Shown: positions 9,649-57,728 of the stretch, piece after piece
Layout of the letters: every line of letters starts with the position of its first letter
Position numbering within the stretch: the first letter of the stretch is position 1
From: Leptotrichia sp. oral taxon 218
GTDB lineage: Bacteria; Fusobacteriota; Fusobacteriia; Fusobacteriales; Leptotrichiaceae
Direction of reading: 5' to 3'
Length of the DNA: 64,000 nt
Assembly: GCF_018128225.1 (NCBI RefSeq)
Contig: NZ_CP072377.1
Span: 1,798,001-1,862,000, forward strand
Notes under the pieces: model-generated
The model's input: the letters and a program-made list of their open reading frames with translations, nothing else
The model's database searches: none
What the model was told of the DNA's origin: nothing
Translations under genes and position numbers: made by a program

Positions 9649-10428
9649 TTAAAATTTCATATTATTTTTAGAACTAAACGCATTTTGAAAAAATCCATCG
9701 GATAAGTCAAATTCAAAAGTTTCACGATTGATGTAACCGACAGTTTTGTCGCTTTCGTAAAGTTGAATGATAAAATCTGCCATTTCTTCGGATGTATGAT
9801 AGTTTGGATAAGATTTATCATAATCAAAATCAGTTTTACCAGTTGCGACATTTCCAAAGTTAGTTTTGGTTGCAGCGGGTGCTAGGACTTTTGCTTTTAA
9901 TTGTGCGTTATTTTGCTTTAATTCTAGTGCGAGTCCCTCTGTGAAGGCGTTTACGTAAAATTTTGTGGCACAGTAGACAATTCCATTCGGGACGATTGTG
10001 TAGCCTCCTGCTGAGGAGATATTGATTAATTGAGATCCTTTTTCGTTGTGGTAATCTTGGACGTATAAGGAAGATAACAAAGTTAATGCTTCTACATTGA
10101 GATGAAGCATATCTGAAATTTTATTTAAAGGCTGCTCTTTTACATCACCATACATTCCAAATCCAGCATTGTTTATTAAAGTTTCAATGTGATAATTGTT
10201 TAATTTTGAATATAGTTCAGGGATTTTACCGACATCAGTTAAGTCAAAATCTATTACAATAATGTCCAAATCAGGATTTTTCTTCAAAATTTCGCTTTTT
10301 AGATCCTCTAGTAAATTCTTTCTTCGTGCAATCAGAATAAGATTTTTATTTCTTTCTGCAAATTTTAGAGCCACAGCCTTTCCTATTCCCGAACTTGCTC
10401 CTGTTATAACAGTATATTTTGTTTTCAT
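9649..10428 (-). CDS. SDR-family NAD(P)-dependent oxidoreductase
   Basis: Classical short-chain dehydrogenase of 259 residues. The Rossmann nucleotide motif TGASSGIGKA lies at about 8-17, NNAG at about 86-89, and the catalytic Ser and YxxxK appear as NISSAGG and YCATKF. Basic residues after the second strand (LIARRKNL) favour NADP(H). The substrate is unknown, but ketone or aldehyde reduction is typical. The ATG at 10428 follows GGAGG (10437-10441). A complete IStron ends one base before that site, so the gene's promoter is now 1.9 kb away beyond the element. A divergent MerR regulator there and a 19-bp-spaced promoter suggest MerR control. Confidence 0.9.
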   Translation of the reverse strand: MKTKYTVITGASSGIGKAVALKFAERNKNLILIARRKNLLEDLKSEILKKNPDLDIIVIDFDLTDVGKIPELYSKLNNYHIETLINNAGFGMYGDVKEQPLNKISDMLHLNVEALTLLSSLYVQDYHNEKGSQLINISSAGGYTIVPNGIVYCATKFYVNAFTEGLALELKQNNAQLKAKVLAPAATKTNFGNVATGKTDFDYDKSYPNYHTSEEMADFIIQLYESDKTVGYINRETFEFDLSDGFFQNAFSSKNNMKF

Positions 10429-10441
10429 AGTTATTACCTCC

Positions 10442-10520
10442 CTGAACCTCCCACGACTAAAGTCGCAGGGTTCTAAAATCTTTAAAAATATTTAAAAATT
10501 TTCTAAGAAATTTGATAGTC
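10442..10520 (-). ncRNA. Putative omega-RNA scaffold / IStron right end with 3' splice site
   Basis: Downstream of tnpB the minus strand folds CCCTGCGACT against AGTCGTGGG (about 10450-10470) and ends GGTTCAG. In IS605 elements this region, together with the 3' end of tnpB, is processed to the guide RNA, whose guide is the flanking host sequence. Here the guide would begin GGAGGTAATAACTATG, over the SDR start. The same bases form the intron 3' splice site. Position inferred by family analogy. Confidence 0.6.
10471..10500. repeat. Right arm of a 30-bp inverted repeat around tnpB (copy 1)
   Basis: Matches the reverse complement of 11827-11856 at 27 of 30 positions by eye. In the element RNA the two arms would pair and loop out tnpB, leaving the ribozyme core next to the 3' splice site. 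Confidence 0.8.
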
Positions 10521-11768
10521 TTATGCTATCCTTATTCTTTTAGGTGTGTTCAGCTCACCTCTATTGTATAGGACGCTTAAGTCCACAACTTTACTTTTTC
10601 TTAATATATTTAATGCCCCGTTACAATCTGCATTTAATTGATAGCCTTTACTTGTTTGATATAGTCCTCTTTTTATCCTTTTTCCACTGAATATATATTC
10701 TTTTTGATTTTCTTTATCATATATCGGGATTTCATCTCCATCAAAGAAACTTGCTTTTGATGTATAACTCTCTTCTTGCAGTTTAAATTCTATTCCATAT
10801 AGTTTACATAGATATATTAATTTATCTCTTAATTTTCCATATGGTATATTTACAAAGTTTTGATTATTTATACTTCCTATATTTGATTTCCTTTGAAAAT
10901 CTTCATTGTATCCTAGAACTAGTTTTCCTATATCATTATTAAGACAATAATTTATTATTATTCTTGCTGCTTTTGAAAGATAATCTTCTATACGATTATT
11001 TCTCTTTCTAGCTATTCTCTTTTGCCTTAATGTTATATGCTCTATCTTTTGCTTATCTTTAATGCTTTGCAATTTTGCATTTGTCTTATTATAGTATTGA
11101 TTTATTGATTTTAATTTTCTACCATCTATTATGAATGATGCTCCGTTATTAGTTACACAAGTACAAAGATTATCTATACCTAAATCAATTCCTAGTCCAT
11201 TTTCTTTATTTAATTCCCTTTGAACTTCTTCTACTTCATAAGTATATTGAATTTCAAAGTACCTAGAATGTTGTTTTGGTATTATTCTAATTTCTTTTAT
11301 CTTCTTACCTTTCAATACTGGTGGCAGCTTAATTTTAACTTCCTGATGAGTTTTCTTAAACGAATTTGAATAAGGAACTATCAGAATATCATCTTTTAAT
11401 CTAACAAAACCTATAACAAGAGTTGTAAATCCATCTTTAGCAAGATATTTAGGTAATTTTATTTTCTTATTATCATATTGACCATTTTTAGCAAGTTTTA
11501 AAAGTCCAAAAAATGATTTGAAACTTCCGTCTACTTCTTTTAGAATTTGTTGAGCCATATTAGAATTTAATTTCTTGTAATTTTCACTATTTTTAAGCAT
11601 TTTATAGTTTTCGTTATAATTTAAATACTTTTTATTTTGAAAATAGTGTTGTCTAATATTATATATAGCTTCATTAGTTAAGTTCTTGGCTATATGGCAC
11701 AAATATTTTAAATTTCTAAACTCTTTTTTACTAAGATGTTTTACCTGTTGTTTTAATGTTAAATACAT
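10521..11768 (-). CDS. tnpB: TnpB-type RNA-guided nuclease of IStron copy 1
   Basis: 415-residue IS605 OrfB/TnpB protein. RuvC motifs appear intact: GIDLGIDNL (Asp about 192), LGYNEDF (Glu about 287) and NADCNGALNIL (Asp about 380). The usual CxxC...CxxC zinc ribbon before the last motif is absent. The region instead reads YTSKASFFDGDEIP, a variant I associate with Clostridium-type IStron TnpBs. TnpB proteins cut DNA guided by an omega-RNA from the right end and help retain the element. The start is the ATG at 11768, nine bases after GGGAGG. A GTG at 11777 lies against that site. It appears full length and functional. Confidence 0.9.
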   Translation of the reverse strand: MYLTLKQQVKHLSKKEFRNLKYLCHIAKNLTNEAIYNIRQHYFQNKKYLNYNENYKMLKNSENYKKLNSNMAQQILKEVDGSFKSFFGLLKLAKNGQYDNKKIKLPKYLAKDGFTTLVIGFVRLKDDILIVPYSNSFKKTHQEVKIKLPPVLKGKKIKEIRIIPKQHSRYFEIQYTYEVEEVQRELNKENGLGIDLGIDNLCTCVTNNGASFIIDGRKLKSINQYYNKTNAKLQSIKDKQKIEHITLRQKRIARKRNNRIEDYLSKAARIIINYCLNNDIGKLVLGYNEDFQRKSNIGSINNQNFVNIPYGKLRDKLIYLCKLYGIEFKLQEESYTSKASFFDGDEIPIYDKENQKEYIFSGKRIKRGLYQTSKGYQLNADCNGALNILRKSKVVDLSVLYNRGELNTPKRIRIA

Positions 11769-11795
11769 AGATATCACCTCCCTTTCATCAGAGAT

Positions 11796-11801
11796 ATTAT
11801 A
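11796..11801 (-). promoter_or_regulatory. Extended -10 promoter of tnpB inside the IStron
   Basis: The minus strand reads TGGTATAAT, an extended -10 element, about 28 bp before the tnpB ATG. It would allow tnpB and omega-RNA transcripts that lack the intron core and therefore cannot splice. Confidence 0.6.
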
Positions 11802-11826
11802 CCATGTATTCTACATTTTATCTGTT

Positions 11827-11856
11827 TATTTTTAAATATTTTTAAAGTTTTTAAAA
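11827..11856. repeat. Left arm of a 30-bp inverted repeat around tnpB (copy 1)
   Basis: Partner of 10471-10500. It begins directly after the P9-like helix of the intron. The same pair is conserved in copy 2 (20686-20715 and 21288-21317). Confidence 0.8.
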
Positions 11857-12330
11857 CCCCACAACAGTGGGAAGCGTCGTTCACATAAGTGCGCTACTAC
11901 TTATGCAGTTCTCTCATGAACTTCTTGTTATCTCTAACAAGCACAGACTATATCTTATCCTTATCCTATTTCAAGGACTTAGGCGAAACCACTTCCAATA
12001 CCTATCGCTTGTATTGTACTCCCCTCACGAGGGATAGTCGTTGAACTTTCCTTTTCAGGTTTAGCTGCTGATTGTCTATTATCATAATGTTTAGGATTTA
12101 ACCTTGCACCATCTAGTATATTTTTTCTGCTTTCGCGACCTTCACACCTATACCATATGCTCACTTAGGTATTATGTTGTGGTTATACCAGCTTTAAGAG
12201 TTCTCAGCAATTCAGTTTCTTTGTTGCACGGTTTTGATCCGTGTCTACATACAAGTTTCCCTATATGCTTACTAAAATTTTCGTGCAATTTATCTCACGA
12301 CTAAAGTTGCGAGTGTTCTTGTACTATTTA
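11857..12330 (-). ncRNA. Group I self-splicing intron core (IStron copy 1)
   Basis: On the minus strand the four conserved group I sequences occur in order: P (AATTGCTGAGAA, 12212-12201), Q (AATCAGCAGC, 12073-12064), R (GTTCAACGACTA, 12046-12035) and S (AAGATATAGTC, 11956-11946). P and Q pair over seven bases to form P4. GACTAT in R pairs perfectly with ATAGTC in S to form P7. The left end carries a hairpin (CTCGCAACTTTAGTCGTGAG) and a CACGG/CCGTG hairpin, probable P1/P2 elements. CCCAC/GTGGG near 11870-11857 looks like a P9 helix. The 3' splice site would be the terminal G at 10442, beyond tnpB. Confidence 0.88.
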
Positions 12331-12347
12331 ATAAATTTGATAAATAA

Positions 12348-12378
12348 AGAATAGCAGTTAGAGTATAGTATAAGTCAA
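12348..12378 (-). promoter_or_regulatory. MerR-type promoter/operator for the SDR gene
   Basis: The minus strand has TTGACT (12378-12373), a 19-bp spacer and TATTCT (12353-12348). The over-long 19-bp spacer holds the imperfect dyad ACTTATACT/ACTCTAACT, typical of promoters activated by MerR-family proteins. A MerR gene begins 190 bp away in the opposite direction. Transcription would start about 11 bases before the IStron. Confidence 0.55.
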
Positions 12379-12564
12379 GAGTTTTTTAAAAAATTTTCCC
12401 AAATTAATTTTTTCTAACAAAGTTTCCATTTTACCTCCAAAATTTTTTATTTGAGTTGTTTTCATTTCATATATTTAGTATAATATAAAATAACCAAAAT
12501 ATTTATAATTAATATTCAACTATTATTTTTAGTTATAATAAAGAGAAGGAGAAAAAATAGAACA

Positions 12565-12924
12565 ATGCAAATAAAGGAATTTTCAGAAAAAACAGGCTTA
12601 ACTCCATATACAATAAGGTTTTATGAAAAAAAGGACCTGTTTCGTGTAAAAAGAGACGAAAAGAATAGAAGAATATACGATGAAACTGATATTGAATGGA
12701 TAAAAATGTTAAAAAGATTAAAAGACATGGGAATGAAATTGAGTGAAATTAAGAAATATTCAGATTTGCGATATGAAGGGAACGGAACGATAAAAGAAAG
12801 AATGAAAATTTTGACAAATCATAAAAAATATGTAAACATAGAAATTGAAAAGTGGCAAAAATATTTACAAAATCTTGATGATAAACTTGAGATTTATGAA
12901 AATTATTTGAAAAATAAAAAATAA
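12565..12924 (+). CDS. MerR-family transcriptional regulator
   Basis: 119 residues. The N-terminal winged helix reads MQIKEFSEKTGLTPYTIRFYEKKDLF, the canonical MerR recognition region (split here by its HTH and wing), followed by DIEWIKMLKRLKDMGM and a C-terminal coiled-coil helix with no metal-binding cysteines. It most resembles the AdhR/NmlR type, which control aldehyde or electrophile detoxification genes such as SDR reductases. The divergent SDR gene, now separated by the IStron, is the likely target. A 45-codon fragment of a close relative lies at 16386-16520. AAGGAG precedes the ATG by about 13 bases. Confidence 0.88.
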   Translation: MQIKEFSEKTGLTPYTIRFYEKKDLFRVKRDEKNRRIYDETDIEWIKMLKRLKDMGMKLSEIKKYSDLRYEGNGTIKERMKILTNHKKYVNIEIEKWQKYLQNLDDKLEIYENYLKNKK

Positions 12925-20656: not shown

Positions 20657-20685
20657 CTGAACCTCCCACGACTAAAGTCACAGGG

Positions 20686-20715
20686 TTCTAAAACCTTTAA
20701 AAATATTCAAAAATT
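20686..20715. repeat. Right arm of the inverted repeat in IStron copy 2
   Basis: Pairs with 21288-21317 with three differences, two of which are tolerated as G-U pairs in RNA. Conservation in a copy whose tnpB is dead supports a role in the RNA fold. Confidence 0.75.
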
Positions 20716-20735
20716 TTCTAAGAAGTTTGATAGCT

Positions 20736-21264
20736 TTACACTACCCTTATTCTTTTAGGTGTGTTCAGTTCACCTCTATTGTATAGGACACTTAAGTCCA
20801 CAACTTTACTTTTCCTTAATATGTTTAATGCTCCATTACAATCTGCATTTATGAGTTTACCTGCACTTGTTTGATATAGTCCTCTTTTTATCCTTTTTCC
20901 ACTGAATATATATTCTTGCAGATTTTCTTTATCATATATTGGAATTTCATCTCCATCAAAGAAACTTGCTTTTGATGTATAACTTTCTTCTTGCAGTTTA
21001 AATTCTATTCCATATAGTTTACATAGATATATTAATTTATCTCTTAATTTTCCATATGGTATATTTACAAAGTTTTGATTATTTATACTTCCTATATTTG
21101 ATTTTCTTTGAAAATCTTCATTATATCCTAGAACTATTTTTCCCATATCATTATTAAGACAATAATTTATAATTATTCTTGCTACTTTTGAAAGATAATC
21201 ATTTATACGATTATTTCTCTTTCTAGCTATTCTTTTTTGTCTTAATGTTATATGCTCTATATTT
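20736..21264 (-). pseudogene. tnpB: tnpB remnant of IStron copy 2 (C-terminal half)
   Basis: Open in frame from IEHITLRQKRIARKRN to the normal C-terminus, about 175 codons. The RuvC-II (LGYNEDF) and RuvC-III (NADCNGALNIL) motifs remain, but the N-terminal half and RuvC-I are deleted. No start codon or ribosome binding site lies at the deletion edge. The first internal ATG is at 21146. It cannot cut DNA, though its 3' part could still supply omega-RNA sequence. Confidence 0.85.
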
Positions 21265-21287
21265 TAAAAAAAGTAATATTTTTTATT

Positions 21288-21317
21288 TATTTTTAAATAT
21301 TTTTAAAGTTTTTAAAA
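21288..21317. repeat. Left arm of the inverted repeat in IStron copy 2
   Basis: Partner of 20686-20715, located directly after the intron core as in copy 1. Confidence 0.75.
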
Positions 21318-21828
21318 CCTCACAACAGTGGGAAGCGTCGTTCACATAAGTTCGCTACTACTTATGCAGTTCTCATGGCATATATACTCCTTAATAAATT
21401 AAGGAGATTAGCCTTGAACTTCTTGTTATCTCTAACAAGCACAGACTATATCTTATCCATATCCTATTTCAAGGACTTAGGCGAAACCACTTCCAATACC
21501 AATCGCTTGTATTGTACTCCCCTCACGAGGGATAGTCGTTGAACTTTCCTTTTCAGGATTAGCTGCTGATTGTCTATTATCATAATGTTTAGGATTTAAC
21601 CTTGCATCATCTAGTATATTTTTTCTGCTTTCGCCACCATCACACTTATACTATATTCGCACTTAAATATTATGTTGTGGTTATACTAGCTTTAAGAGTT
21701 CCCAGCAATTCAGTTTCTTTGTTGCACGATTTTTCTACGTGTCTACATACAAGTTTCCCTATATGCTTACTAAAATTTTCGTGCAATTCATCTCACGACT
21801 AAAGTTGCGAGTGCTCTTGCACTATTTA
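21318..21828 (-). ncRNA. Group I self-splicing intron core (IStron copy 2)
   Basis: The P, Q, R and S sequences are all unchanged at their critical bases: ATTGCTGGGAAC, AATCAGCAGC, GTTCAACGACTA and AAGATATAGTC. P7 is preserved. Relative to copy 1 it carries about 40 extra bases in the P9 region (21375-21415) that form their own hairpin, CTCCTTAAT/ATTAAGGAG. The left-end stem has compensating changes (TTGCAC here, TTGTAC in copy 1). Likely still able to splice. Confidence 0.82.
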
Positions 21829-33315: not shown

Positions 33316-33403
33316 AGCGTTCTCCTTTACAAATATAAAATTCAAAAAGAATAATCACTATAATATTTTTGTTTTATAATTTCTTATAACTTTTGTATAT
33401 TAT

Positions 33404-33488
33404 TCAGGTTGTGATAACCCAAAGAGCATCCGCCGAATTTTCGATAACTCTTTTTCCTCGTCTCCTTTTTTAAAAAGGTCTGGCGCTA
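33404..33488 (-). ncRNA. glmS self-cleaving ribozyme/riboswitch
   Basis: The minus strand upstream of glmS carries the conserved order AGCGCCAGACC (cleavage between A33487 and G33486), GACGAGG, GTTATCGA, TTCGGCGGATGC and the P4-like GGGTTATCACAACC. These match the glmS ribozyme core, which cleaves itself when glucosamine-6-phosphate binds and so lowers glmS mRNA. The P1 stem is short (CCTTTTTT/AAAAAAGG). Confidence 0.93.
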
Positions 33489-33586
33489 TTTTTAATTTTT
33501 ATTCTTTTTGTTAAATAATTATATCAAATTTACTATTTTTTTTCAATATTTTATTTTTTTTATAAATTATAAAATTTAAAATAAAA

Positions 33587-33640: not shown

Positions 33641-33715
33641 TGGCTGGGCTGAATGGATTCGAACCATTGCATGCTAGAGTCAAAGTCTAGTGCCTTACCG
33701 CTTGGCGACAGCCCA
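33641..33715 (-). tRNA. tRNA-Gln (TTG)
   Basis: Cloverleaf on the minus strand with acceptor TGGGCTG/CAGCCCA, anticodon arm CTAGA-CTTTGAC-TCTAG giving anticodon TTG, T-loop GGTTCGAATCC, and an encoded CCA end. Confidence 0.95.
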
Positions 33716-47301: not shown

Positions 47302-47377
47302 TGGTGCCCAGACGCGGAATCGAACCACGGACACAGGGATTTTCAGTCCCTTGCTCTACCGACTGAGCTATCTGGGC
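47302..47377 (-). tRNA. tRNA-Phe (GAA)
   Basis: Acceptor GCCCAGA/TCTGGGC, anticodon loop CTGAAAA, T-arm GGTTCGATTCC and encoded CCA. Last of eight tRNAs in transcription order. Confidence 0.95.
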
Positions 47378-47380
47378 ATA

Positions 47381-47467
47381 TGGCGGGTGAACTGGGATTC
47401 GAACCCAGACATCTTGCGATTTCGCCGGTTTTCAAGACCGGTCCCTTAGCCGTTCGGACATCCACCC
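47381..47467 (-). tRNA. tRNA-Ser (TGA)
   Basis: Class II tRNA with a long variable arm, anticodon arm CCGGT-CTTGAAA-ACCGG giving TGA, acceptor GGGTGGA/TTCACCC, CCA encoded. Confidence 0.95.
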
Positions 47468-47535
47468 ACAACTTAAAAATTTATATCGTAATTACTTCAA
47501 AAAAATACCACAATTAATATGGTTTTTAAAAAAAA

Positions 47536-47610
47536 TGGTACGGCCTAGGGGAGTCGAACCCCTGTTGCCAGGATGAAAACCTGGAGTCCTAACCACTAGA
47601 CGAAGGCCGC
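47536..47610 (-). tRNA. tRNA-Glu (TTC)
   Basis: Acceptor GCGGCCT/AGGCCGT, anticodon arm CCAGG-TTTTCAT-CCTGG giving TTC, CCA encoded. Confidence 0.95.
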
Positions 47611-47622
47611 ATAAAATTTAAA

Positions 47623-47699
47623 TGGTGGATCCAGCTGGACTTGAACCAGCGACCGCTCGGTTATGAGCCGAGTGCTCTAACCAGCTGAGCTATGGATCC
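47623..47699 (-). tRNA. tRNA with CAT anticodon (Met elongator or Ile2)
   Basis: Acceptor GGATCCA/TGGATCC, anticodon arm CTCGG-CTCATAA-CCGAG, CCA encoded. The sequence around the anticodon and T-arm (GGCTCATAACCG, GGTTCAAGTCC) resembles bacterial tRNA-Ile2, whose C34 is changed to lysidine, more than elongator Met. The paired acceptor excludes an initiator. Identity cannot be settled by eye. Confidence 0.9.
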
Positions 47700-47702
47700 A
47701 TA

Positions 47703-47779
47703 TGGCGTGCCTGAAGAGATTCGAACTCCTGGCCCACGGCTTAGAAGGCCGTTGCTCTATCCAACTGAGCTACAGGCAC
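47703..47779 (-). tRNA. tRNA-Arg (TCT)
   Basis: Acceptor GTGCCTG/CAGGCAC, anticodon arm ACGGC-CTTCTAA-GCCGT giving TCT, CCA encoded. Confidence 0.95.
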
Positions 47780-47791
47780 ATATGGTAAAAA

Positions 47792-47867
47792 TGGTGAGCC
47801 ATACTGGGATCGAACCAGTGACACCTTGATTAAAAGTCAAGTGCTCTACCGACTGAGCTAATGGCTC
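47792..47867 (-). tRNA. tRNA-Lys (TTT)
   Basis: Acceptor GAGCCAT/ATGGCTC, anticodon arm CTTGA-CTTTTAA-TCAAG giving TTT, CCA encoded. Confidence 0.95.
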
Positions 47868-47873
47868 ATATTT

Positions 47874-47949
47874 TGGAGCGGGAGACGAGGGTCGAACTCG
47901 CGACATTCAGCTTGGAAGGCTGACGCTCTACCAACTGAGCTACTCCCGC
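47874..47949 (-). tRNA. tRNA-Gly (TCC)
   Basis: Acceptor GCGGGAG/CTCCCGC, anticodon arm TCAGC-CTTCCAA-GCTGA giving TCC, CCA encoded. Confidence 0.95.
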
Positions 47950-47962
47950 ATAAATATGATTG

Positions 47963-48050
47963 TGGTGCCTCGGGCCGGACTTGAACCGGCACGGAATAAT
48001 ATTCCACAGGATTTTAAGTCCTGTGCGTCTACCGATTTCGCCACCAAGGC
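47963..48050 (-). tRNA. tRNA-Leu (TAA)
   Basis: Class II tRNA, first of the cluster. Acceptor GCCTTGG/CCGAGGC, anticodon arm CAGGA-CTTAAAA-TCCTG giving TAA, long variable arm, CCA encoded. Confidence 0.95.
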
Positions 48051-56630: not shown

Positions 56631-57728
56631 CTAATATTTCAACATTTCTTTTCCAACATCTCTTATATTAAGTGCCGCATTGTAATCTCTATCAATCTCA
56701 ATTCCGCAACACTCACATTTATAGCTTCTTTCTGATAATTTCAGTTCCTCTTTAATATTTCCGCATTTACTACAAGTTTTCGACGACGGAAACCACTTAT
56801 CTATCTTCAAAAATTGTTTCCCTAAAAACATCAACTTATACTCAAGCATCCTCAAAAACATTCCCCATCCATTATCTCCTACACTTTTCCCAAAATTTAA
56901 TGCCTGGCTCATCCCTTTCATATTCAAATCCTCGACAATCACAGCATTATGTTCTTTGGACAATTTTTTTGATAATTTATGCAAAAAATCTCTTCGACAA
57001 TTTTTAATATATTCATGTAATTTTGATATTTTTGCTTTTTGTTTATACCAATTTTTAGAAAACTTTACTTTTCTTGATAATGATTTCTGTAATTTCTTCA
57101 ATTTTTTCTCCAACATCCTAAAATATCTTGGATAATCAGCCCTTTGGTTTTCAGAGCTGACAAATAATTCAGACATTGAAAAATCAAGTCCAATCACTTT
57201 ATCATTACTTGGTATTTTTTGAATTTCTTTTTCAAATTCCGTCAAAACAGAAACATAGTAATTTCCATTACTATTTGTCAATGTTACTGACTTTATCTTG
57301 TAATCTTTTGTTATTTCTCTATGATATTTTAATTTAACTTTTTTCAATTTTGGCAAAACCAAATATTTATTTTCTTCAATTCGTATTGAATTATTCACAC
57401 AATTTGTTGTATAACTTTTAACATTATTCTTTTTAGATTTGAACCTTGGAAATTTCGCTCTCTTTTGAAAGAAATTCGTAAACGATCGTTTTACATTCAA
57501 TTGAGCATTTGAAAGTGCCAGGCTGTCTACTTCTTTCAAAAATTGGTTTTCACTTTTCAAACTGGCAGGTGTAATTATTTTATTTTTTCCAGTTTCTTCA
57601 TAAATTTTATTAGCAGTGTACAAAATCGTATTGTAAACAAAACGAACACATCCAAAAGTCTTGTCTATCAACAATTCTTGATCTTTATTTGGATAAATTC
57701 TATATTTGAATGCTAAATTATATTTCAT
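56631..57728 (-). CDS. tnpB: TnpB-type RNA-guided nuclease with intact zinc ribbon
   Basis: 365 residues, full length. The N-terminal helix-turn-helix (FKYRIYPNKDQELLIDKTFG), RuvC-I VIGLDFSMSEL (Asp about 180), RuvC-II VIVEDLNMKG (Glu about 264), zinc ribbon CSKCG ... CECCG (about 320-342) and RuvC-III DRDYNAALNI (Asp about 347) are all intact. It differs from the IStron TnpB, which has no zinc ribbon, so two independent TnpB lineages coexist in the window. AAAGGAGG precedes the ATG. Confidence 0.93.
   Translation of the reverse strand: MKYNLAFKYRIYPNKDQELLIDKTFGCVRFVYNTILYTANKIYEETGKNKIITPASLKSENQFLKEVDSLALSNAQLNVKRSFTNFFQKRAKFPRFKSKKNNVKSYTTNCVNNSIRIEENKYLVLPKLKKVKLKYHREITKDYKIKSVTLTNSNGNYYVSVLTEFEKEIQKIPSNDKVIGLDFSMSELFVSSENQRADYPRYFRMLEKKLKKLQKSLSRKVKFSKNWYKQKAKISKLHEYIKNCRRDFLHKLSKKLSKEHNAVIVEDLNMKGMSQALNFGKSVGDNGWGMFLRMLEYKLMFLGKQFLKIDKWFPSSKTCSKCGNIKEELKLSERSYKCECCGIEIDRDYNAALNIRDVGKEMLKY

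Follow-up and report, generated by a model that had tools for sequence, protein, structure and literature searches.

The window analysed here, 64,000 nucleotides of contig NZ_CP072377.1 of Leptotrichia sp. oral taxon 218, contains on its minus strand a complete 1889-bp IStron, i.e. a group I intron, occupying roughly the first 460 bases of the element, fused to an IS200/IS605 tnpB gene. The features of the locus, with those of the element given in its own 5' to 3' direction and with copy counts referring to the 58 full-length copies compared, are as follows.

12565-12924, plus strand: MerR gene, beside the promoter-like site of the next line.
12348-12378, minus strand: TTGACT-N19-TATTCT, a putative MerR-type promoter-like site before the insertion (a pattern composed after viewing the sequence, so not an independent test).
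12331-12335, minus strand: TTTAT, the insertion target, which also forms the final five bases of the 5' exon; precedes 58/58 copies (7 genomes).
10442-12330, minus strand: the whole IStron.
12294-12313, minus strand: left-end palindrome CTCGCAACTTTAGTCGTGAG, within the P1 loop, as read from the sequence.
12268-12276, minus strand: internal guide sequence TTTAGTAAG, present in 58/58 copies.
11924-12272, minus strand: group I intron catalytic core (RF00028, 48.1 bits, E 2.7e-11, model positions 1-253, i.e. full).
12201-12213, minus strand: P element, kept in 57/58 copies.
12061-12073, minus strand: Q element, kept in 55/58 copies.
12035-12046, minus strand: R element, kept in 56/58 copies.
11946-11956, minus strand: S element, kept in 58/58 copies.
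11875-11884, minus strand: GTGAACGACG, the GAACGA motif at which the IS part starts in IStrons according to PMC4227781; exact in 41/58 copies.
11796-11804, minus strand: TGGTATAAT, a putative extended -10-like site ahead of tnpB, by pattern match.
10521-11768, minus strand: tnpB, 415 aa, without zinc ribbon (NF040570 209 bits, cut-off 100; PF01385, PF07282).
10442-10635, minus strand: tnpB 3' end and right end, the presumed omega-RNA scaffold, with a predicted 3' splice site after TTCAG.
10450-10470, minus strand: right-end palindrome CCCTGCGACTTTAGTCGTGGG, as read from the sequence.
9649-10428, minus strand: downstream SDR gene (PF00106), whose ribosome site, GGAGG, comprises the first bases past the element.
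20657-21828, minus strand: second IStron copy, with an internal tnpB deletion; its intron scores 49.4 bits with RF00028.

The promoter consensus list includes neither the TGGTATAAT -10-like site nor the TTGACT-N19-TATTCT site. The element runs from 12330 (TAAATAG...) to 10442 (...GGTTCAG), and identical ends are found in 27/27 full-length copies in the genome. Eleven congener loci hold the downstream SDR gene; in ten of them the sequences bordering the window copy adjoin precisely, as TTTAT|GGAGG, the left-flank match being absent at the eleventh (L055). These clean empty sites indicate insertion after TTTAT without target duplication. The TTTAT count includes L007, which fits once one extra T is assigned to the element. 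As the insert lies between the MerR-type promoter-like site and the SDR ribosome site, splicing would restore the SDR leader. Some 146 bases before the insertion (12391-12536) are missing between matching pieces in seven congener loci.

The original prediction, made from sequence, was of a complete IStron at this position and strand, and it is borne out by the RF00028 match, the 415-aa tnpB and the exact borders. Its components also hold: P, Q, R and S are all located on the minus strand, the tnpB frame is open at full length with the NF040570 match given above, a right end of IS605 type with its palindrome can be read, no tnpA lies inside the element, and none of the CxxC pairs seen in the genome's other TnpBs is present, in keeping with the proposed lack of a zinc ribbon. 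The borders, proposed from alignment with the second copy, are confirmed by the shared ends and the abutting flanks. A search with the Rfam group I model, proposed as a check, was successful in part: a 461-base scan gave the match at E 2.7e-11, but at 1.9 bits short of the gathering score of 50, and larger scans missed it, with none at gathering on the whole window or in nine loci scanned, and none at E<=1 in a 2.2-kb scan around the window copy. The intron of L011, which reached 58.4 bits in a genome-wide scan, was likewise missed in the nine-locus gathering scan, so the misses are read as filter effects. The genome-wide scan gave 17 places (12 above gathering), comprising 14 of the TTTAT family (13 full copies and the internally deleted one) and three of a second IStron family; 14 full TTTAT-family copies, including that of the window, are not among them. 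The window also has a glmS ribozyme (33349-33498, 76.5 bits), a cluster of eight tRNA genes (47305-48050) and a ninth tRNA gene (33644-33715).

The guide TTTAGTAAG pairs, as read from the sequence, with TTTAT|TAAA to form P1, with a U.G at the 5' splice site. TTTAT occurs with AGTAAG in 58/58 copies of the window family, and TTGAT with AGTCA in 14 other introns aligned (eight of the second family and six stand-alone), such that P1 covaries between the two IStron families, U-A in one and G-C in the other. The core motifs are conserved although the mean dS between intact tnpB genes is 0.23. All 58 copies have the 3' end TTCAG, and hence the TCAG of group A IStrons. The right end (query 1699-1889) has a consensus fold with little covariation and is retained in the ends-only copies described below. 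The cobalt-precorrin-6A reductase gene (CbiJ/CobK) of G007, G012 and G011 appears to be split by a pair of stand-alone group I introns, each of which follows TTGAT (exon 2 of L125 is 1832-2248, minus, and L126 and L127 are arranged likewise; the middle exon matches PF02571 with E 7e-30).

Within its 2.17 Mb the genome carries 27 copies of full length, one with an internal deletion and three that are ends-only. The 58 copies compared are these 27 together with 31 from congeners, the latter being the full-length ones among the matches listed, and come from 7 genomes; within the genus, the element is matched in at least 10 of 13 genomes, and at full length in at least 7, including the present one. 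Close TnpB relatives occur in 9/98 phylum genomes: 7/13 of the genus, one of another genus of the family and one, partial, in another family. Identity reaches no more than 97.8% for any pair among the 58, which does not support a recent burst of copies. The second copy in the window retains an intact-looking intron and, by eye, lies in-frame and sense within an acyltransferase-like ORF. At L090, L102 and L107 one insertion site is common to three genomes; L090 and L102 share 97% identity in their flanks, while the elements are only 91-93% identical, which suggests that copies have undergone conversion or that the site was used for insertion again.

Six intron matches in the same genome (L056-L061), with 75-78% identity over the core, make up the second IStron family. 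Further afield, a Selenomonadaceae MAG encodes a TnpB 63% identical to that of the window, with an intron core upstream by eye, and TnpBs 65-67% identical in the best segment are present in L034 (a Mollicutes MAG), L130 (a viral contig) and L036 (a Synergistaceae MAG), upstream of which no intron motifs were found. L036 has no intron, its TnpB is broken, and its left-end hairpin is shared with the window family. Since there are relatives both with and without an intron, introns and the window-family TnpB clade have probably been joined or separated on more than one occasion, in line with the argument of PMC4227781 on IStrons generally.

The positions of the copies relative to host genes are informative. 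By a 70-codon rule, 50 of the 58 score as sense insertions into genes, one frame being open to either side, one as antisense and seven as intergenic, to be compared with 237 sense (30%), 342 antisense (44%) and 203 intergenic among the 782 TTTAT sites of the 64-kb window, the null model being taken from the window and not the genome. When the site shared by L090, L102 and L107 is entered once, 48/56 sites are sense (p 1e-17), and sense exceeds antisense by 48 to 1. L004 and L011 fall below the rule though sense frames run through them (68 and 67 codons); the antisense score of L017 (87 codons on one side, 0 on the other) is probably due to a shadow frame of the downstream gene; and L001 and L006 score as sense because the junction creates an ATG, the L001 insertion being, in our view, in a 5' leader rather than at a true start. 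The second family is sense in 6/6 cases, compared with 170/261 window TTGAT sites. By contrast, 16 intronless IS605 copies from this genome score as two sense, four antisense and ten intergenic; 8/46 TTTAAC sites are intergenic versus 10/16 of these copies (p 7e-5). The control set is 16 of 20 loci taken from a longer TnpB list, with L068, L076, L083 and L084 excluded owing to an unmatched left end, a different element or a right end that was not found. One intronless TTTAAC-type IS605 tnpB copy (L072) lies in the window at 56661-57710, minus strand. PMC4227781 describes IStrons as mostly within genes (118/202 insertions) and IS elements as mostly outside; the comparison of IStron and intronless copies within one genome adds to that statement.

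Part of the sense bias may stem from replication-strand targeting, as 24/27 own copies follow a chromosome-half orientation. That Y1 targeting of one replication strand, combined with gene co-orientation, accounts for the bias without selection for splicing is, however, unlikely: L021 and L025, the gene-located exceptions to the two-half pattern, are sense all the same; sense and antisense each account for 38% of the minus-strand TTTAT sites in the window, yet the copies score 48 to 1; and intronless IS605 copies are mostly between genes. Host translation meets a stop within two codons of the junction in 19/20 own gene insertions tested, which would keep ribosomes out of the ribozyme. No claim is made of a phase preference for such an immediate stop, the sense-frame phases of TTTAT in the window being 100, 86 and 62.

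L006 is inserted between the AT and the G of the guanylate kinase (gmk) start codon, where the ATG made by the junction is the real gmk start. A single gmk family member was found in the genome, as in each of the 13 genus genomes, and an ATG occupies the corresponding place in 10/12 congeners, the site not being matched by the search pattern in the other two (L148, L151). The 40 codons that follow in the unspliced gmk frame include no ATG, GTG or TTG; upstream there is a single TTG, within the right end of the element, before a stop 28 codons away. Guanylate kinase is essential in Escherichia coli. As the start codon of the only gmk found is split, with no ATG, GTG or TTG in the 40 codons after it, the strain probably requires the IStron splice for gmk, and this dependence of a host on an IStron ribozyme is directly testable.

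The gmk case also bears on whether the intron is a relic within an otherwise ordinary tnpB-only IS element and no longer splices. A score below the Rfam gathering value would suit such a relic, but 55-58 of the 58 copies keep each core motif, sense insertions have open frames on both sides when 10/16 intronless copies are intergenic, and a start codon is split, all of which render it improbable, somewhat more so than strand targeting. Hardly credible is a structured leader or regulatory RNA of tnpB in place of an intron, for although the position upstream of tnpB and the use of structured RNA by TnpB systems would suit it, the group I match is full-length with P, Q, R and S, and the guide fits the flanking target in 58/58 copies. 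Judged from motifs and positions, the IStron can probably reside in active genes and be excised from their transcripts.

The TnpB frame is open at full length in 22/27 own copies and in 28/31 of the congener copies listed, with a dN/dS of 0.17 (50 ORFs). The zinc ribbon (two CxxC pairs) that many TnpBs have, and that occurs in both other TnpB groups aligned, is absent from the window-family TnpB. D195 and D381 are invariant across 14 sequences; in the same alignment the canonical RuvC-II Glu has no counterpart, and nuclease activity is therefore described as predicted. An alternative Glu just ahead of the zinc finger is reported for Fanzors and some TnpBs (PMC10711439), and near the equivalent place a conserved EESYTSKASF stretch is a candidate site. 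It is kept as a lead because the AlphaFold model (mean pLDDT 65.8; <50 at 289-306 and 334-355) is poor there, too poor to place a catalytic Glu. With this model, the best Foldseek matches are Cas12f and TnpB (E 8e-12); a phmmer search of the PDB yielded no match at E<=0.01.

A mechanism can be proposed on this basis. An IS200/IS605 Y1 transposase, presumably supplied in trans, would insert the IStron after TTTAT with no target duplication. In the host transcript the intron would fold, its guide UUUAGUAAG pairing with UUUAU|UAAA and setting the U.G at the 5' splice site, and two transesterifications would then ligate TTTAT to the flank that follows ...TTCAG; the motifs and the pairing are seen in the sequence, the splicing steps being predicted from them. 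The expected splice product is TTTAT-GGAGGTAAT, for which the support is comparative. TnpB with the right end, using the flank as guide, presumably cuts empty sites, as inferred from its family, so keeping or restoring the element. Taken as a whole, 10442-12330 is very probably a group A-type IStron, presumably mobilised in trans as DNA and predicted to self-splice as RNA.

Among the matches listed, there is also a spreading ends-only derivative of the window IStron, with 8 copies in 5 genomes (L028, L062, L063, L118, L119, L121, L122 and L123), 302-320 bp long and 91-97% identical, that lacks the ribozyme core and tnpB and consists of the left end (~1-87), a short pre-tnpB piece with a -10-like site, and the last ~190 bases. 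There were 11 candidates, of which L065, L120 and L124 were discarded as half-elements. Seven of the eight start after TTTAT, the left end of L028 being changed. By the 70-codon rule six are intergenic, L122 is sense, its junction creating an ATG followed by two more, and L028 is antisense (81 codons). L028 lies just ahead of an ORF resembling, by eye, a Cas3-type HD protein. Intron-bearing, intronless and ribozyme-less relatives occur in one genome, a natural comparison bearing on the idea that the ribozyme permits life in genes.

How IStrons without tnpA move is left open in PMC4227781. L083, a 2117-bp intronless element inserted after TTTAT, encodes a Y1 TnpA and a larger TnpB. Its right end (45 bases) is 91% identical to that of the second family and 73% to that of the window family, compared with 47% for a TTTAAC element; for the left end (60 bases) the values are 58%, 54-55% and 40%, respectively. 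Of the 13 genus genomes, only G000, with two copies, and G008, with one, have a close TnpA of this kind. With its tnpA and similar ends, L083 is a candidate mobiliser in these two genomes, and to that extent a candidate answer to the mobility question. As a general answer, its TnpA acting in trans is rejected, since G006, G007, G009, G011 and G012 carry IStrons without a close TnpA. A 2024 Science paper reportedly had the conflict of splicing and guide RNA as its subject. It may be, though this is a speculative and somewhat doubtful scheme, that three tiers operate: a tnpA element (L083 and its sister copy) that would move the IStrons; gene-dwelling IStrons, on whose splicing the only gmk would depend; and ends-only copies that would act as promoter-driven solo guide-RNA genes, lending new guides to TnpB in trans, mostly outside genes and free of a splicing/guide conflict.

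The original prediction gave the range of IStrons as Clostridioides and the Bacillus cereus group; this needs correcting, as Fusobacteria are already on record (PMC1924603, PMC4227781). Five IStrons are described in F. nucleatum subsp. polymorphum (PMC1924603), and the 16 IStrons of PMC4227781 include FnISt1, FnISt2 and the Leptotrichia LbISt1 (Table 1). The latter work gives TTGAT, ATTAT or TTTAT as group A targets, with up to 24 copies per strain, and ORF A as often truncated or missing. IStrons in Fusobacteria are, therefore, known; what is added is the copy number, the same-genome control, the covariation of target and guide between two families, the gmk case, the ends-only class and the mobiliser candidate. 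No report of the gmk case, an ends-only class or a same-genome control was found among the matches listed from the open-access literature.

The overall likeness of the window element to the group A IStrons (CdISt1, FnISt1, FnISt2, LbISt1) extends to a group I intron that precedes an IS200/IS605 ORF B, a T-rich pentanucleotide target, a 3' TCAG, no target duplication, a GAACGA-type border and the absence of ORF A. It differs in that its TnpB lacks the zinc ribbon (FnISt2 being set apart by description, not by sequence), in having 27 full copies in one genome versus a maximum of 24 in the 2014 survey, and in that its close TnpB relatives, in 9 of 98 phylum genomes, fall mostly in one genus. The TTGAT IStron of the same genome (L056-L061) has a homologous intron, the TTCAG end and the same preference for sense gene insertion, but uses a different target, with the guide AGTCAG, and has a zinc-ribbon TnpB only ~21% identical. 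L034, L130 and L036, conversely, have TnpBs like that of the window family but are intronless, and L083 has the TTTAT target and a right-end likeness in common with the window family, while differing in having no intron, a TnpA and a larger TnpB.
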